The notes beneath the pieces were generated by a model. That model was not told the DNA's origin and ran no database searches. It saw only the letters and a program-made list of their open reading frames with translations. The position numbers and the translations under genes were made by a program. From Chlorella sorokiniana (taxonomy: Eukaryota; Chlorophyta; Trebouxiophyceae; Chlorellales; Chlorellaceae), in the NCBI GenBank assembly GCA_025917655.1, contig CP084620.1, positions 1,984,001-2,048,000 of the forward strand: 64,000 nt of DNA, written 5' to 3'. Each line of letters starts with the position of its first letter. Positions within the stretch are counted from its first letter, which is position 1. Below, in pieces: positions 5,540 through 27,884 of the stretch.

Positions 5540-5830
5540 CCAGCCCCCGCCCAGCAGTGCCCGCCGCCCCAAAGCGAATTATCATTGCCCATGCGCAAGG
5601 ACGAAACGCTCTGCTCGAGAAATGGTTGCAGATGTTTAGTGACGGCAGCGCCCTCTCCTGCCCGCCTGGGGGTGCCTCCTTGCTCCGCCCAGCATGGCTT
5701 GCTGGCCTCCCCACCAGTTCACTGTGCCCGCAGCCCTCTCCCGCAGCAGCCCCCTTCTGCAGAATGCAGCCAGAGCAGCAGCGGACACCTTGGGCTTTAT
5801 GTTTCGCAGCAGGCAAGGCCGGCCTGTGTG
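5540..5830 (-). repeat. Second inverted duplicate segment (matches 15255-15450)
   Basis: The reverse complement matches the region just downstream of aladin. Shared landmarks are CCCGCCCAGCAGTGCCCGCC, the GACGGCAG...CCCTCTCCTGCCCGCCT block, GCTGGCCTCCCCACC, and CCGCAGCAGCCCCCTTCTGCA. The copy is interrupted near 5571-5638 by a U6 snRNA fragment that is absent from the 15.4-kb copy. Relative to the copy at 15 kb, this segment and the aladin 3' segment lie in swapped order. Confidence 0.75.
5571..5638 (+). pseudogene. Degenerate U6 snRNA 3' fragment
   Basis: Shares ATGCGCAAGGACGAAACGCT and CTGCTCGAGAAATGGTT with the 3' half of the full U6 at 26741-26843, with several substitutions. It covers roughly the region from the AGATTAGC element to just before the 3' U tract. 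It sits inside a duplicated segment whose other copy lacks it, so it arrived after, or with, the duplication. Truncated U6 pieces joined to unrelated DNA are a known by-product of LINE-mediated reverse transcription; that origin is inference here. Confidence 0.8.
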
Positions 5831-21671: not shown

Positions 21672-22299
21672 CAACCAGTGATCTGTGGACTGCAGGACCA
21701 CGGCGAGCTGCAAGGTAAGCAGGGGGTCAGCGGATGGCGCGAGGTTAGCGCGATTCCTGCTCCGAGGTTGCCGGGCGGTGAGGGACCGATAAAGGGCTGC
21801 AACCTGGTCGATACAGCCACGAGCCAACCGGGGCAGCAATGTGCGCCTGGAGAGGCACCGTCAAGCCTCGCAGGTGTCTCCCGGGGCCACGAGCCCTCGC
21901 GAGATCTGAATCATCGATCAGCGGACCTGATAATGCATGTAATGCTCACATTGGAGAGATGCGAGCGGCTGCAGCCGCAGCCGACGCTGCGGCGCTGAGC
22001 TGGCAAGGCGCGGCAGCGGGCACTGGCCGCATGCTGAGCGGGCAGCGGCCAGCAGGCCTGCCTCTCCCTCCGCAGCGATGTCATTCTGAGCTGGCCGAGG
22101 GCAGCATGAAGCAGAGCTACAGCGCCAAGCATGGTGGGTGCAGGGTGCCGAGCAGGCGCAAGCACGGCGCCGATCCCTTACTGGGATGCCTGCTCCCTGT
22201 GGAGCCCAGCCCGCTCCCAGCCACTTTGTTGTGCAGCGGGGCATAAGAAGTGGGGCCAGCCAGCCACTTTGTTGTCCGGCCGAGCATAAGGATGGGGGG

Positions 22300-22363
22300 A
22301 AAAGTTGTGGAACCATTTCTCGAGCAGAGCGTGTCATCCTTGCGCAGGGGCCATGCTAATCTT
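22300..22363 (-). pseudogene. Truncated U6 snRNA, array unit 1
   Basis: Minus strand: AAGATTAGCATGGCCCCTGC through CTCGAGAAATGG and the TTTT tract. The 5' half of U6 is replaced by GGCGGCGGACAGC. Confidence 0.9.
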
Positions 22364-22855
22364 GCTGTCCGCCGCCATGCCGCCTGCGCGCATGGCGGCG
22401 GCAGAGGGCTGCACGAGGTGCGCCGCGTTGGAGTGCTTGCGCATGCCCTCCTTCCGCCCCGCCCGCTCCGCCCCGCCAGCTGTACTTCCCTGGCGGCAGC
22501 TCCTGCCACGCCATCCCCGGCTGCCGCCAAGGGCGCGAGGCGGCGGTGGCGCCGGGGCAGATTGCCAGGCGAGGGGAGAACGGACGCGGCGCCAAGCAGC
22601 CAACCTGTGTGGCTGAGCTGGCCACTCCCCGCTCCAGCTTGGGCGGGCCCCACCTTCCATAGCAGCCAGGTGCGGGTCTTCCAGCGGGGCCGCCCCTTAC
22701 GACACGCTGTGGCGCCAGGGCGGCATTCGGGACTGGCAGCCAGGGGGTGGGGCAAGGCTGGCCCCGAGGTGGGGCAGGGATGAGCATGCAGCGGGGCATA
22801 AGAAGTGGGGCCAGCCAGCCACTTTGTTGTCCGGCCGAGCATAAGGATGGGGGGG

Positions 22856-22919
22856 AAAAGTTGTGGAACCATTTCTCGAGCAGAGCGTGTCATCCTTGCG
22901 CAGGGGCCATGCTAATCTT
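22856..22919 (-). pseudogene. Truncated U6 snRNA, array unit 2
   Basis: Same 64-nt U6 3' portion and same upstream breakpoint as unit 1; G7 follows the terminator. Confidence 0.9.
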
Positions 22920-23409
22920 GCTGTCCGCCGCCATGCCGCCTGCGCGCATGGCGGCGGCAGAGGGCTGCACGAGGTGCGCCGCGTTGGAGTGCTTGCGCAT
23001 GCCCTCCTTCCGCCCCGCCCGCTCCGCCCCGCCAGCTGTACTTCCCTGGCGGCAGCTCCTGCCACGCCATCCCCGGCTGCCGCCAAGGGCGCGAGGCGGC
23101 GGTGGCGCCGGGGCAGATTGCCAGGCGAGGGGAGAACGGACGCGGCGCCAAGCAGCCAACCTGTGTGGCTGAGCTGGCCACTCCCCGCTCCAGCTTGGGC
23201 GGGCCCCACCTTCCATAGCAGCCAGGTGCGGGTCTTCCAGCGGGGCCGCCCCTTACGACACGCTGTGGCGCCAGGGCGGCATTCGGGACTGGCAGCCAGG
23301 GGTGGGGCAAGGCTGGCCCCGAGGTGGGGCAGGGATGAGCATGCAGCGGGGCATAAGAAGTGGGGCCAGCCAGCCACTTTGTTGTCCGGCCGAGCATAAG
23401 GATGGGGGG

Positions 23410-23473
23410 AAAAGTTGTGGAACCATTTCTCGAGCAGAGCGTGTCATCCTTGCGCAGGGGCCATGCTAATCTT
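23410..23473 (-). pseudogene. Truncated U6 snRNA, array unit 3
   Basis: Same 64-nt U6 3' portion and breakpoint; G6 follows the terminator. Confidence 0.9.
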
Positions 23474-23965
23474 GCTGTCCGCCGCCATGCCGCCTGCGCG
23501 CATGGCGGCGGCAGAGGGCTGCACGAGGTGCGCCGCGTTGGAGTGCTTGCGCATGCCCTCCTTCCGCCCCGCCCGCTCCGCCCCGCCAGCTGTACTTCCC
23601 TGGCGGCAGCTCCTGCCACGCCATCCCCGGCTGCCGCCAAGGGCGCGAGGCGGCGGTGGCGCCGGGGCAGATTGCCAGGCGAGGGGAGAACGGACGCGGC
23701 GCCAAGCAGCCAACCTGTGTGGCTGAGCTGGCCACTCCCCGCTCCAGCTTGGGCGGGCCCCACCTTCCATAGCAGCCAGGTGCGGGTCTTCCAGCGGGGC
23801 CGCCCCTTACGACACGCTGTGGCGCCAGGGCGGCATTCGGGACTGGCAGCCAGGGGGTGGGGCAAGGCTGGCCCCGAGGTGGGGCAGGGATGAGCATGCA
23901 GCGGGGCATAAGAAGTGGGGCCAGCCAGCCACTTTGTTGTCCGGCCGAGCATAAGGATGGGGGGG

Positions 23966-24029
23966 AAAAGTTGTGGAACCATTTCTCGAGCAGAGCGTGT
24001 CATCCTTGCGCAGGGGCCATGCTAATCTT
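23966..24029 (-). pseudogene. Truncated U6 snRNA, array unit 4
   Basis: Same 64-nt U6 3' portion and breakpoint; G7 follows the terminator. Confidence 0.9.
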
Positions 24030-24521
24030 GCTGTCCGCCGCCATGCCGCCTGCGCGCATGGCGGCGGCAGAGGGCTGCACGAGGTGCGCCGCGTTGGAGT
24101 GCTTGCGCATGCCCTCCTTCCGCCCCGCCCGCTCCGCCCCGCCAGCTGTACTTCCCTGGCGGCAGCTCCTGCCACGCCATCCCCGGCTGCCGCCAAGGGC
24201 GCGAGGCGGCGGTGGCGCCGGGGCAGATTGCCAGGCGAGGGGAGAACGGACGCGGCGCCAAGCAGCCAACCTGTGTGGCTGAGCTGGCCACTCCCCGCTC
24301 CAGCTTGGGCGGGCCCCACCTTCCATAGCAGCCAGGTGCGGGTCTTCCAGCGGGGCCGCCCCTTACGACACGCTGTGGCGCCAGGGCGGCATTCGGGACT
24401 GGCAGCCAGGGGGTGGGGCAAGGCTGGCCCCGAGGTGGGGCAGGGATGAGCATGCAGCGGGGCATAAGAAGTGGGGCCAGCCAGCCACTTTGTTGTCCGG
24501 CCGAGCATAAGGATGGGGGGG

Positions 24522-24585
24522 AAAAGTTGTGGAACCATTTCTCGAGCAGAGCGTGTCATCCTTGCGCAGGGGCCATGCTAATCTT
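24522..24585 (-). pseudogene. Truncated U6 snRNA, array unit 5
   Basis: Same 64-nt U6 3' portion and breakpoint; G7 follows the terminator. The single-base indels near 24850 and 24915 lie further on in this unit. Confidence 0.9.
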
Positions 24586-25076
24586 GCTGTCCGCCGCCAT
24601 GCCGCCTGCGCGCATGGCGGCGGCAGAGGGCTGCACGAGGTGCGCCGCGTTGGAGTGCTTGCGCATGCCCTCCTTCCGCCCCGCCCGCTCCGCCCCGCCA
24701 GCTGTACTTCCCTGGCGGCAGCTCCTGCCACGCCATCCCCGGCTGCCGCCAAGGGCGCGAGGCGGCGGTGGCGCCGGGGCAGATTGCCAGGCGAGGGGAG
24801 AACGGACGCGGCGCCAAGCAGCCAACCTGTGTGGCTGAGCTGGCCACTCCCGCTCCAGCTTGGGCGGGCCCCACCTTCCATAGCAGCCAGGTGCGGGTCT
24901 TCCAGCGGGGCCGCCCCCTTACGACACGCTGTGGCGCCAGGGCGGCATTCGGGACTGGCAGCCAGGGGGTGGGGCAAGGCTGGCCCCGAGGTGGGGCAGG
25001 GATGAGCATGCAGCGGGGCATAAGAAGTGGGGCCAGCCAGCCACTTTGTTGTCCGGCCGAGCATAAGGATGGGGGG

Positions 25077-25140
25077 AAAAGTTGTGGAACCATTTCTCGA
25101 GCAGAGCGTGTCATCCTTGCGCAGGGGCCATGCTAATCTT
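25077..25140 (-). pseudogene. Truncated U6 snRNA, array unit 6
   Basis: Same 64-nt U6 3' portion and breakpoint. This unit also carries the short deletion near 25315. Confidence 0.9.
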
Positions 25141-25630
25141 GCTGTCCGCCGCCATGCCGCCTGCGCGCATGGCGGCGGCAGAGGGCTGCACGAGGTGCGC
25201 CGCGTTGGAGTGCTTGCGCATGCCCTCCTTCCGCCCCGCCCGCTCCGCCCCGCCAGCTGTACTTCCCTGGCGGCAGCTCCTGCCACGCCATCCCCGGCTG
25301 CCGCCAAGGGCGCGAGGCGCGGTGGCGCCGGGGCAGATTGCCAGGCGAGGGGAGAACGGACGCGGCGCCAAGCAGCCAACCTGTGTGGCTGAGCTGGCCA
25401 CTCCCCGCTCCAGCTTGGGCGGGCCCCACCTTCCATAGCAGCCAGGTGCGGGTCTTCCAGCGGGGCCGCCCCTTACGACACGCTGTGGCGCCAGGGCGGC
25501 ATTCGGGACTGGCAGCCAGGGGGTGGGGCAAGGCTGGCCCCGAGGTGGGGCAGGGATGAGCATGCAGCGGGGCATAAGAAGTGGGGCCAGCCAGCCACTT
25601 TGTTGTCCGGCCGAGCATAAGGATGGGGGG

Positions 25631-25694
25631 AAAAGTTGTGGAACCATTTCTCGAGCAGAGCGTGTCATCCTTGCGCAGGGGCCATGCTAATCTT
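25631..25694 (-). pseudogene. Truncated U6 snRNA, array unit 7
   Basis: Same 64-nt U6 3' portion and breakpoint; G6 follows the terminator. Confidence 0.9.
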
Positions 25695-26185
25695 GCTGTC
25701 CGCCGCCATGCCGCCTGCGCGCATGGCGGCGGCAGAGGGCTGCACGAGGTGCGCCGCGTTGGAGTGCTTGCGCATGCCCTCCTTCCGCCCCGCCCGCTCC
25801 GCCCCGCCAGCTGTACTTCCCTGGCGGCAGCTCCTGCCACGCCATCCCCGGCTGCCGCCAAGGGCGCGAGGCGGCGGTGGCGCCGGGGCAGATTGCCAGG
25901 CGAGGGGAGAACGGACGCGGCGCCAAGCAGCCAACCTGTGTGGCTGAGCTGGCCACTCCCCGCTCCAGCTTGGGCGGGCCCCACCTTCCATAGCAGCCAG
26001 GTGCGGGTCTTCCAGCGGGGCCGCCCCTTACGACACGCTGTGGCGCCAGGGCGGCATTCGGGACTGGCAGCCAGGGGGTGGGGCAAGGCTGGCCCCGAGG
26101 TGGGGCAGGGATGAGCATGCAGCGGGGCATAAGAAGTGGGGCCAGCCAGCCACTTTGTTGTCCGGCCGAGCATAAGGATGGGGGG

Positions 26186-26249
26186 AAAAGTTGTGGAACC
26201 ATTTCTCGAGCAGAGCGTGTCATCCTTGCGCAGGGGCCATGCTAATCTT
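26186..26249 (-). pseudogene. Truncated U6 snRNA, array unit 8
   Basis: Same 64-nt U6 3' portion and breakpoint; last truncated copy before the full U6 gene. Confidence 0.9.
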
Positions 26250-26740
26250 GCTGTCCGCCGCCATGCCGCCTGCGCGCATGGCGGCGGCAGAGGGCTGCAC
26301 GAGGTGCGCCGCGTTGGAGTGCTTGCGCATGCCCTCCTTCCGCCCCGCCCGCTCCGCCCCGCCAGCTGTACTTCCCTGGCGGCAGCTCCTGCCACGCCAT
26401 CCCCGGCTGCCGCCAAGGGCGCGAGGCGGCGGTGGCGCCGGGGCAGATTGCCAGGCGAGGGGAGAACGGACGCGGCGCCAAGCAGCCAACCTGTGTGGCT
26501 GAGCTGGCCACTCCCCGCTCCAGCTTGGGCGGGCCCCACCTTCCATAGCAGCCAGGTGCGGGTCTTCCAGCGGGGCCGCCCCTTACGACACGCTGTGGCG
26601 CCAGGGCGGCATTCGGGACTGGCAGCCAGGGGGTGGGGCAAGGCTGGCCCCGAGGTGGGGCAGGGATGAGCATGCAGCGGGGCATAAGAAGTGGGGCCAG
26701 CCAGCCACTTTGTTGTCCGGCCGAGCATAAGGATGGGGGG

Positions 26741-26793
26741 AAAAGTTGTGGAACCATTTCTCGAGCAGAGCGTGTCATCCTTGCGCAGGGGCC

Positions 26794-26825
<32 letters not shown>

Positions 26826-26843
26826 ACATGTGGTCCGAAGACC
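26741..26843 (-). ncRNA. U6: U6 spliceosomal snRNA, full length
   Basis: A 103-nt minus-strand sequence with every U6 landmark: the 5' stem-loop GGTC-TTCG-GACC, AAAATTGGAACGATACAGAG containing the ACAGAG box that pairs with 5' splice sites, AAGATTAGCATGGCCCCTGC including the AGC triad, the internal stem-loop GCGCAAGGATGACACGC, and a 3' end with a TTTT tract for Pol III termination. A TATA-like element lies 25-30 bp upstream. It is the only intact copy in the window and forms the end of the array, so it is the likely parent of the truncated copies. Confidence 0.97.
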
Positions 26844-26867
26844 GGCAGGGAAGGGTGGGGTGCAGCA

Positions 26868-26873
26868 CATAAA
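26868..26873 (-). promoter_or_regulatory. TATA-like element of the U6 gene
   Basis: Minus-strand TTTATG lies 25 to 30 bp upstream of the U6 5' end at 26843, the spacing expected for Pol III type-3 (U6) promoters. It is absent from the truncated copies, which carry GC-rich sequence at that place. Confidence 0.6.
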
Positions 26874-26879
26874 GAGCCA

Positions 26880-27884
26880 GGCTGGCTGAGGGCAGACCCT
26901 TATGGGGCAGCAGGCCCACATCCCCGCCTCCCCTGCCTCCCAATCGGCCCGTTTTGCAGCCTGCATGCACGTTTACATCCATAGCAGGTCCCAGACATGC
27001 CGTGGCCGGCCCCAGGCAGTCCCCTGACGCACAACCAGGTGGGGGAGGCATGCCATCCTGACCCCCACACAACCCACCGCCTGCAGCGCGCCGCTCCGCT
27101 GCCATCGCTGCTCGCATCGCAATTTGGGCCGATTGGGCGCCCCCGGCGGCAAATTGGGTGGGGAGAGGCGATGCCGGCGGCAGCCGCCCTCACCCATCCC
27201 GCCAGATGAAGCGCGGCCGGCCGGGCAGGCACATTTCCCGCTGCACATCATTGAGCGACTGAAGGCCGACGCAATGCGCCGCCGTTTGACTGTGCCCGTT
27301 GGCCAGCGAGGTGCCAGCGCGGCGCGGCGGCCGCCCAGCCCCCTCCACGGGGCCATGGCCTGTCGCATCTGCTGCTAACCAGTTACTCCCAGGTTGAGGG
27401 AAGGGGATCACAGATTGCTGCCTGGGGGGTCAGCCACGCGGCGGCATCAACATGCGATGACTTCCACCGCTGCTGTAAGCTAAGCGTGCAAGGTCGGTGC
27501 CGCTGCCGTTCCCCCAGCCTCCTGCCCAAGTCTGCGGCGAAAGGGCGTCATGAAGAAGGCTGCCTGGCGCGGAGCCTGCCTCACAGGCAGCCCGAGTGCT
27601 GCCATCTCAAGACACACACGGCGACTGTTGGGATGCGGCACTGCGTCCCAAGGGTTGGCAGGCCGCGGCAAACTGCCAGCACGCTGCGCAACATCCCTCA
27701 GTTGCCCGCATGCTTCATGTGGAAACCATCATGCGTGTGGTGCACCACAGCAGTTCCTGTCGACCCCAGCAGCAAAGGTCAAACCACCTGACTTTGTGGT
27801 CTTGTTTGCGATTCACATGGAATGCACAACTGCAAGTACTGGTCTTTGGGAAACCACGCGAGGGGACAGCATCTACAGGCGGAT
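26880..27884. other. Gene-free stretch upstream of U6
   Basis: About 1 kb with no supported gene. It may hold distal U6 promoter elements and the 3' flank of the minus-strand Gln-rich gene. Short open frames here show no recognisable protein. Confidence 0.45.

Follow-up and report, generated by a model that had tools for sequence, protein, structure and literature searches.

Why is the gene for U6, the catalytic RNA of the spliceosome, followed by a row of its own broken copies? The question is raised by a locus of the green alga Chlorella sorokiniana, which lies in a 64,000-nt stretch of contig CP084620.1 (C4:1984001-2048000, hereafter the window) of a 38.8-Mb genome assembly in 15 contigs. 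A first-pass annotation of the window, made from the letters alone, had noticed eight truncated U6 units next to one intact U6 gene. The observation is confirmed here, and its interpretation is partly supported: it was right in outline, and the origin of the inserted DNA and one of the junctions are now explained. We consider it quite probable that the array is a neutral tandem duplication at the DNA level, on the 3' side of what is probably the only working U6 gene, that it began with a template switch and grew by unequal exchange, and that its copies are silent.

Organization of the U6 array

A complete U6 small nuclear RNA (snRNA) gene, 103 nt long when counted to its TTTT end, is found on the minus strand at 26741..26843 (Rfam RF00026, 93.5 bits, model positions 1-105; the Rfam interval is 26742-26843). 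As indicated by Rfam and by reading of the sequence, an array of eight truncated U6 copies on the same strand, spaced by about 555 bp, ends in this gene. The truncated copies give eight Rfam matches, from 22301-22364 to 26187-26250, each with 48.4 bits against a gathering score of 44 for U6. Each copy comprises 64 nt, from AAGATTAGC through TTTT. Seven of them were placed by Rfam and DNA search, all on the minus strand, at 26186..26249 (copy 1), 25631..25694 (copy 2), 25077..25140 (copy 3), 24522..24585 (copy 4), 23966..24029 (copy 5), 23410..23473 (copy 6) and 22856..22919 (copy 7). Copy 8 (22300..22363, minus; Rfam and sequence comparison) is the last one, and its flank runs into unique DNA without an insert.

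In the repeated unit, 64 nt of U6 are followed by 68 bp of 3' flank from the U6 gene itself and by a 423-bp insert. Read along the minus strand, the locus starts with promoter, U6, 68-bp 3' flank and 423-bp insert, continues with seven repeats of the last 64 nt of U6, 68-bp flank and 423-bp insert, and finishes with the last 64 nt of U6, the 68-bp flank and unique DNA. This makes eight truncated U6 copies and eight inserts. The seven whole units measure 554-556 bp, and the earlier description of eight units of about 555 bp, each carrying the last 64 nt of U6 and its 3' flank, is borne out by Rfam and by this unit comparison. The segment of the intact gene that is found in every unit, 132 nt that span the U6 end (64 nt) and the adjoining 3' flank (68 bp), is located by sequence comparison at 26673..26804 (minus). 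On the left, the array proper begins at 22232, the last base in common with the repeat; its other end is 26804, the start of the shared part in the intact gene. At the left end (22231..22232; sequence comparison) the shared sequence ends with ...GCTGCA and unique DNA starts with CAACAAAGTGG...; the array start first given, 22241, was 9 bp off. A 43-bp near-repeat (1.9 copies; window 22217-22297) in the U6 3' flank spans this left end.

The same 5' breakpoint is present in all eight truncated copies. The first 44 positions of the U6 model are absent from them, and they have neither the 5' stem-loop nor the ACAGAGA box. As had been noted in the first pass, they retain the AGC triad and the internal stem-loop; the 3' oligo-U tail is also kept.

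The units are nearly identical, as first described. Across eight aligned units (the seven whole ones and the unit on the side of the intact gene; 4,441 nt summed) there is no substitution. Five columns inside the unit are variable, all of them single-base indels in short C/G runs, and three extra variable columns at the start of the alignment represent the junction with the intact gene. Copy 8 and its flank match the intact gene at all 132 nt. Zero substitutions in 4,441 nt set a 95% upper bound of about 7 per 10,000 sites, although gene conversion would also keep the units alike. A chance origin of the array is excluded by the length and identity of these matches.

DNA search of the whole genome with the unit gave 18 matches. 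Eight of these are units in full or nearly so, one is a piece from the end of the array, and the nine that lie elsewhere are partial. Full units were found at the window locus only, and not at several loci as would be expected of satellite DNA; the same array without linkage to U6, an outcome considered in the first pass, was found nowhere else in this search. The array is apparently recent and local.

The intact U6 gene and its promoter

The intact gene combines an snRNA-type promoter with an oligo-T terminator. An upstream element, CCCCATAAGGG, was located by motif search about 65 bp upstream of U6 (26897..26907, minus), and a TATA-like element, TTTATGTG, lies about 30 bp upstream of its start (26866..26873, minus; 31 bp before GTCTTCGG), while the gene ends with TTTT. 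The motif CCCATAASGG has a single occurrence in the 64-kb window, at this gene. The two intact U2 genes found on C6 by family search (46 of 122 candidates scored) bear CCCATAAGG and CCCATAACGG 70 bp upstream. Since a motif of the CCCCATAAGGG type precedes both U6 and U2, this organism probably uses it as its snRNA upstream element. The two U2 genes have opposite orientations (C6:1666272-1666461, plus; C6:1671930-1672119, minus) and are alike in the gene and in the near upstream region; farther upstream they differ except for the common CCCATAASGG. U5, used as a second promoter control, gave no match here, but the control genomes likewise gave none.

Among the U6 copies found, the window gene alone combines upstream element and terminator. 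It is probably the sole U6 gene that works in this genome, because three nearly full copies on C9 (described below) lack the terminator and, as far as they were checked, the promoter. The 'one intact U6 gene' of the first-pass annotation therefore stands for the window, and probably in function, but the genome holds these three nearly full copies in addition. In the array units, an exact-motif search detected no occurrence of CCCATAASGG or of the exact TTTATGTG, which agrees with the earlier statement that the copies lack the promoter.

The insert and its junction with U6

The first of the eight inserts, of about 423 bp, occupies 26250..26672 (minus). As judged from alignment, what remains here is a decayed piece of a probable coding-gene family, arranged exon-intron-exon by comparison with its relatives. 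These relatives are two loci on C3, L033 (82% identity over 153 bp and 73% over 131 bp) and L034 (77% over 153 bp), and one on C11, L035 (73% over 190 bp). L033 and L034 are similar over a longer stretch in translation (best E 4e-115) and are therefore taken as members of a coding-gene family. The comparison suggests two exons with an intron between them and, in the array copy, changes that break the reading frame; the exon limits are our own reading. What had been described as about 400 bp of unrelated GC-rich DNA is thus a gene fragment of 423 bp with relatives elsewhere in the genome.

Pfam gave no match for one L034 frame holding the exon related to the insert, no protein homologue at E <= 0.001 was found for an L033 frame (7,996 candidates scored), and, U6 aside, Rfam gave nothing beyond microRNA look-alikes below threshold (23 bits, where the cut-off is 88). 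A coding or RNA function of the insert was therefore rejected, and the insert was kept as a decayed fragment. No remains of a donor gene were detected beside the array, L033, L034 and L035 matching the window inside the units only (E <= 1e-4).

The junction between insert and U6 falls in the microhomology AAGA (26246..26249, minus). At this point the family exon reads GCAAGAAGCGC in L034 and L035 (GCAGGAAGCGC in L033), and it has the four bases AAGA in common with U6, which reads AGAGAAGATTAG. Because the breakpoint is inside these 4 bp, its exact base cannot be fixed; the single breakpoint first proposed is shared by all eight copies, but not defined to the base. A GC-rich hairpin in the insert (26251..26290, minus; DNA folding) lies directly upstream of the junction. 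Folded as DNA, the 73-nt stretch 26248-26320 reaches -27.6 kcal/mol against a shuffle mean of -18.6 (z -3.86), and none of 200 shuffles was as good.

Other U6-like sequences in the genome

In the U6 family search, 47 of 1,970 candidates were scored. It gave 14 matches, of which 13 exceed the cut-off: the intact gene, the eight truncated copies, the three nearly full copies on C9 and one piece of 63-64 nt on C8. The fourteenth, weak match is at window 5576-5637. A DNA search at E <= 10 returned the identical set, and a pattern search allowing up to 3 mismatches found the 14 together with one match on C5 with 3 mismatches; the reversed control pattern gave 1 match.

The C9 copies, at 782917-783017 (minus), 787421-787521 (minus) and 796210-796310 (plus) in loci L037 and L038, lie inside a young long interspersed nuclear element (LINE). 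The last 8 nt of U6, including the T-run, are missing from them. For one copy, neither promoter element was present in the approximately 780 bp checked upstream, and the other two have the same sequence as this one in the flank examined. At the insertion point, the matches to one flank and those to the other have exactly 15 bp in common in 11 of the 11 LINE copies whose matches reach it from both sides (one each on C1, C3 and C13, two each on C2 and C6, and four on C8), an overlap that may include one or two U6 bases; one further C2 pair, which is not adjacent, and matches covering part of one flank stand outside this count. Because of this target overlap and the empty sites in all 11 LINE copies, the C9 copies are regarded as retrocopies. 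They were later duplicated, over 5.0 kb at 99.5% and, inverted, over 1.6 kb at 99.8%. In the third copy, the insertion has an endonuclease-like motif (GDWN) on one side and a reverse-transcriptase-like motif (FLDFEKAYD) on the other; Pfam gave no match for the frames tried.

The C8 piece, 63 nt with a complete 3' end (L036:4350-4412 within L036:4045-5167), sits where an inverted LINE part meets a sense one. Relative to L079, a LINE on C3 (RVT_1, E 7.7e-25), the order is 307 bp inverted (91%), U6 and the sense part (96%), and 127 bp of the LINE are absent in between. LINE copies on C12 and C4 have both parts in the C3 order. For a target duplication there is just an 11-bp candidate, unanchored at the LINE ends. 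This arrangement has the appearance of a twin-priming pattern combined with a jump to U6 RNA. A separate 73-bp insertion with a decayed U6 3' part lies in the window at 5568..5640 (plus); its empty paralogue is at about 15423 on the other strand, and no target duplication was seen at this insertion.

The matches of one LINE segment, many of them 97-100% alike, form clusters at C8:753-785 kb, C2:3055-3084 kb and C6:747-765 kb, with further ones at C3:2046-2104 kb, C9:782-797 kb and C13:320-354 kb, where the matches are mostly short and about 1.46 kb apart. These clusters resemble the Zepp-type clusters that are reported at green-algal centromeres (PMC11005252).

Origin and function of the array

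The neutral duplication proposed here would have taken place in two steps. In the first, to which the junctions point, a growing strand would have left the U6 3' flank during repair or replication, copied about 420 bp of the decayed gene fragment, re-entered U6 at AAGA beside the hairpin and gone on through the final 64 nt of U6 and the flank, which were thereby duplicated. In the second, suggested by the identity and head-to-tail order of the units, unequal exchange or a related process would have taken one unit to eight, and the same process would have kept them alike. A template switch, producing a complex tandem duplication, fits the first step better than simple unequal crossover because the microhomology junction goes together with a copied gene fragment. 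The passage of the last flank into unique DNA is expected if the added piece was insert-U6-flank. The earlier proposal of one truncation event beside the parent gene, amplified afterwards, is supported; the unequal crossover that it invoked is retained for the multiplication of the unit and gives way to a template switch for its birth.

Several points weigh against this course of events. Comparison of the unit with the genome, which had been recommended for tracing the insert, led to the relatives on C3 and C11, but the direct donor was not found in the assembly, the nearest relative being 82-84% identical. The initial 130 bp or so of the insert align poorly to the family of L033, L034 and L035, and no clear microhomology was identified at the flank-to-insert junction. 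The number of units depends on one assembly. The promoter search covered exact motifs only, and another promoter may exist in the insert. Finally, the C8 and 5568-5640 pieces, which have a different origin, seem to start in or beside the ACAGAGA box, and chance microhomology would not predict this.

Since the units differ by single-base indels in C/G runs alone, a typical long-read error, an assembly artefact might be considered, in which one or a few units were multiplied or many were collapsed to eight. With 4.6 kb, however, the array is short relative to long reads, an assembly of 38.8 Mb in 15 contigs suggests that long reads were used, and the indel patterns vary between units, so that an artefact appears unlikely. 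It is less likely still that the truncated copies are retropseudogenes, reverse-transcribed from U6 RNA and inserted beside the parent gene. The genome does contain U6 retrocopies, those on C9 with their 15-bp target overlap, and the C8 piece, within a rearranged LINE, starts 1-3 nt from the array breakpoint. Yet the 68 bp of genomic flank, which a retropseudogene should not carry, accompany all nine U6 copies and are not on normal U6 RNA, which disfavours this RNA as the template of the array; a read-through U6 RNA ending at GCTGCA would be required. Moreover, the insert retains an intron-like stretch, and neither an A-tail nor a target duplication was seen when the unit ends were read.

A functional array is very improbable indeed; its units would be transcribed into pieces of the U6 3' part, and these, by binding U4 or U6 proteins, would damp or buffer splicing. 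In favour of this, the copies have retained the AGC triad, the internal stem-loop and the 3' oligo-U, but CCCATAASGG and TTTATGTG are absent from the units, RNAs of this kind would be expected to harm splicing, which makes silence likelier, and the units are alike including the insert, with no sign of selection on the U6 part alone. The suggestion that the copies act as U6 decoys is likewise unsupported, to judge from the promoter elements that the units lack. Having no recognised promoter and no ACAGAGA box, the truncated copies are most likely promoterless and silent and do nothing. If they were transcribed, they could bind U4 and interfere, and the survival of eight potentially interfering copies is therefore an argument for silence.

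The neighbouring starts of the U6 pieces could also reflect a weak point of U6 RNA, inside or adjacent to the ACAGAGA box, and the repeated capture of a defined 3' piece of about 63 nt, as RNA or as unfinished complementary DNA. Such capture would have occurred in the C8 LINE, in the piece at 5568-5640 and, via a DNA intermediate, in the array. The three starts apparently fall within about 7 nt, the third being uncertain as the piece is decayed. In a simulation, three uniform starts had a range of <=7 nt with a chance of about 0.018, a post hoc value that includes the uncertain third start. In contrast to U6, the two U2 genes left no fragments in the genome detectable at E <= 10. 2'-O-methylation at or near this box is reported for human U6 at A47 (PMC8599867) and for Arabidopsis U6 at A43 in its numbering (PMC8053127), and we infer that it could stop a LINE reverse transcriptase. 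The clustering is weakened because the array start is already explained by microhomology. A weak point of this kind is thus doubtful, and the shared start in or beside the ACAGAGA box is a lead, not a result.

If it arose by the duplication favoured here, the U6 array is a clean and apparently recent record of a template switch, in a genome that shows further routes by which U6 sequences spread. Located directly behind the probable sole U6 gene, it would give lasting occasion for unequal exchange and gene conversion. If conversion spanned the shared 132 nt, it would be harmless; exchange could delete or copy the U6 gene. The picture of splicing is not changed by the array.

Comparison with known systems

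No report of such an array was found among the open-licence papers listed by the literature searches. Foreign DNA beside a broken U6 is likewise known from the Dada-U6 DNA transposons, which target U6 positions 65-70 (GCGCAA/GCGAAA) with a 6-bp duplication (PMC3706591). The array, in contrast, is broken at AAGA before TTAGC, 14-18 nt upstream of GCGCAA, and its insert resembles a gene fragment. The locus does not have the break at U6 65-70 with a 6-bp duplication that marks a Dada-U6 insertion.

The retrocopies have counterparts in mammals. As in the mammalian U6 pseudogenes treated in PMC4476161, the C9 copy is 3'-truncated with a target duplication, and as in the mammalian U6-LINE chimeras of the same source, the U6 3' end on C8 continues into a LINE part of like orientation. 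Also described are platypus L2 chimeras with a 5'-truncated U6 (PMC4476161), U6-LINE and twin-priming chimeras in mammals (PMC4476161, PMC13174262) and, in a fungus, template jumps of a LINE onto another RNA (PMC2104539). C8 can be counted among the U6-LINE chimeras, here in a non-mammalian genome: the U6 3' end there runs into a LINE 3' part and, unlike in the mammalian ones, an inverted LINE segment is added on the opposite side, 5' of U6. The array is unlike both the pseudogenes and the chimeras in that it carries genomic flank; C8 and C9 are other loci.

With tandem snRNA gene arrays, the locus shares the head-to-tail order and the near-perfect identity of its units. To our knowledge, such arrays consist of whole genes with their promoters, whereas here eight of the nine U6 copies are without promoter and 5' part.

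Template-switch, or microhomology-mediated, repair is a model for tandem duplications with templated insertion. The array shares with it the junction microhomology, the copy of a distant segment, the adjacent hairpin and the head-to-tail copies. It differs in that the original donor copy was not found in the assembly, that microhomology is present at one of the two junctions, and that eight copies lie at an snRNA gene. The rearrangement is ordinary in kind and unusual in its place, at an important gene.

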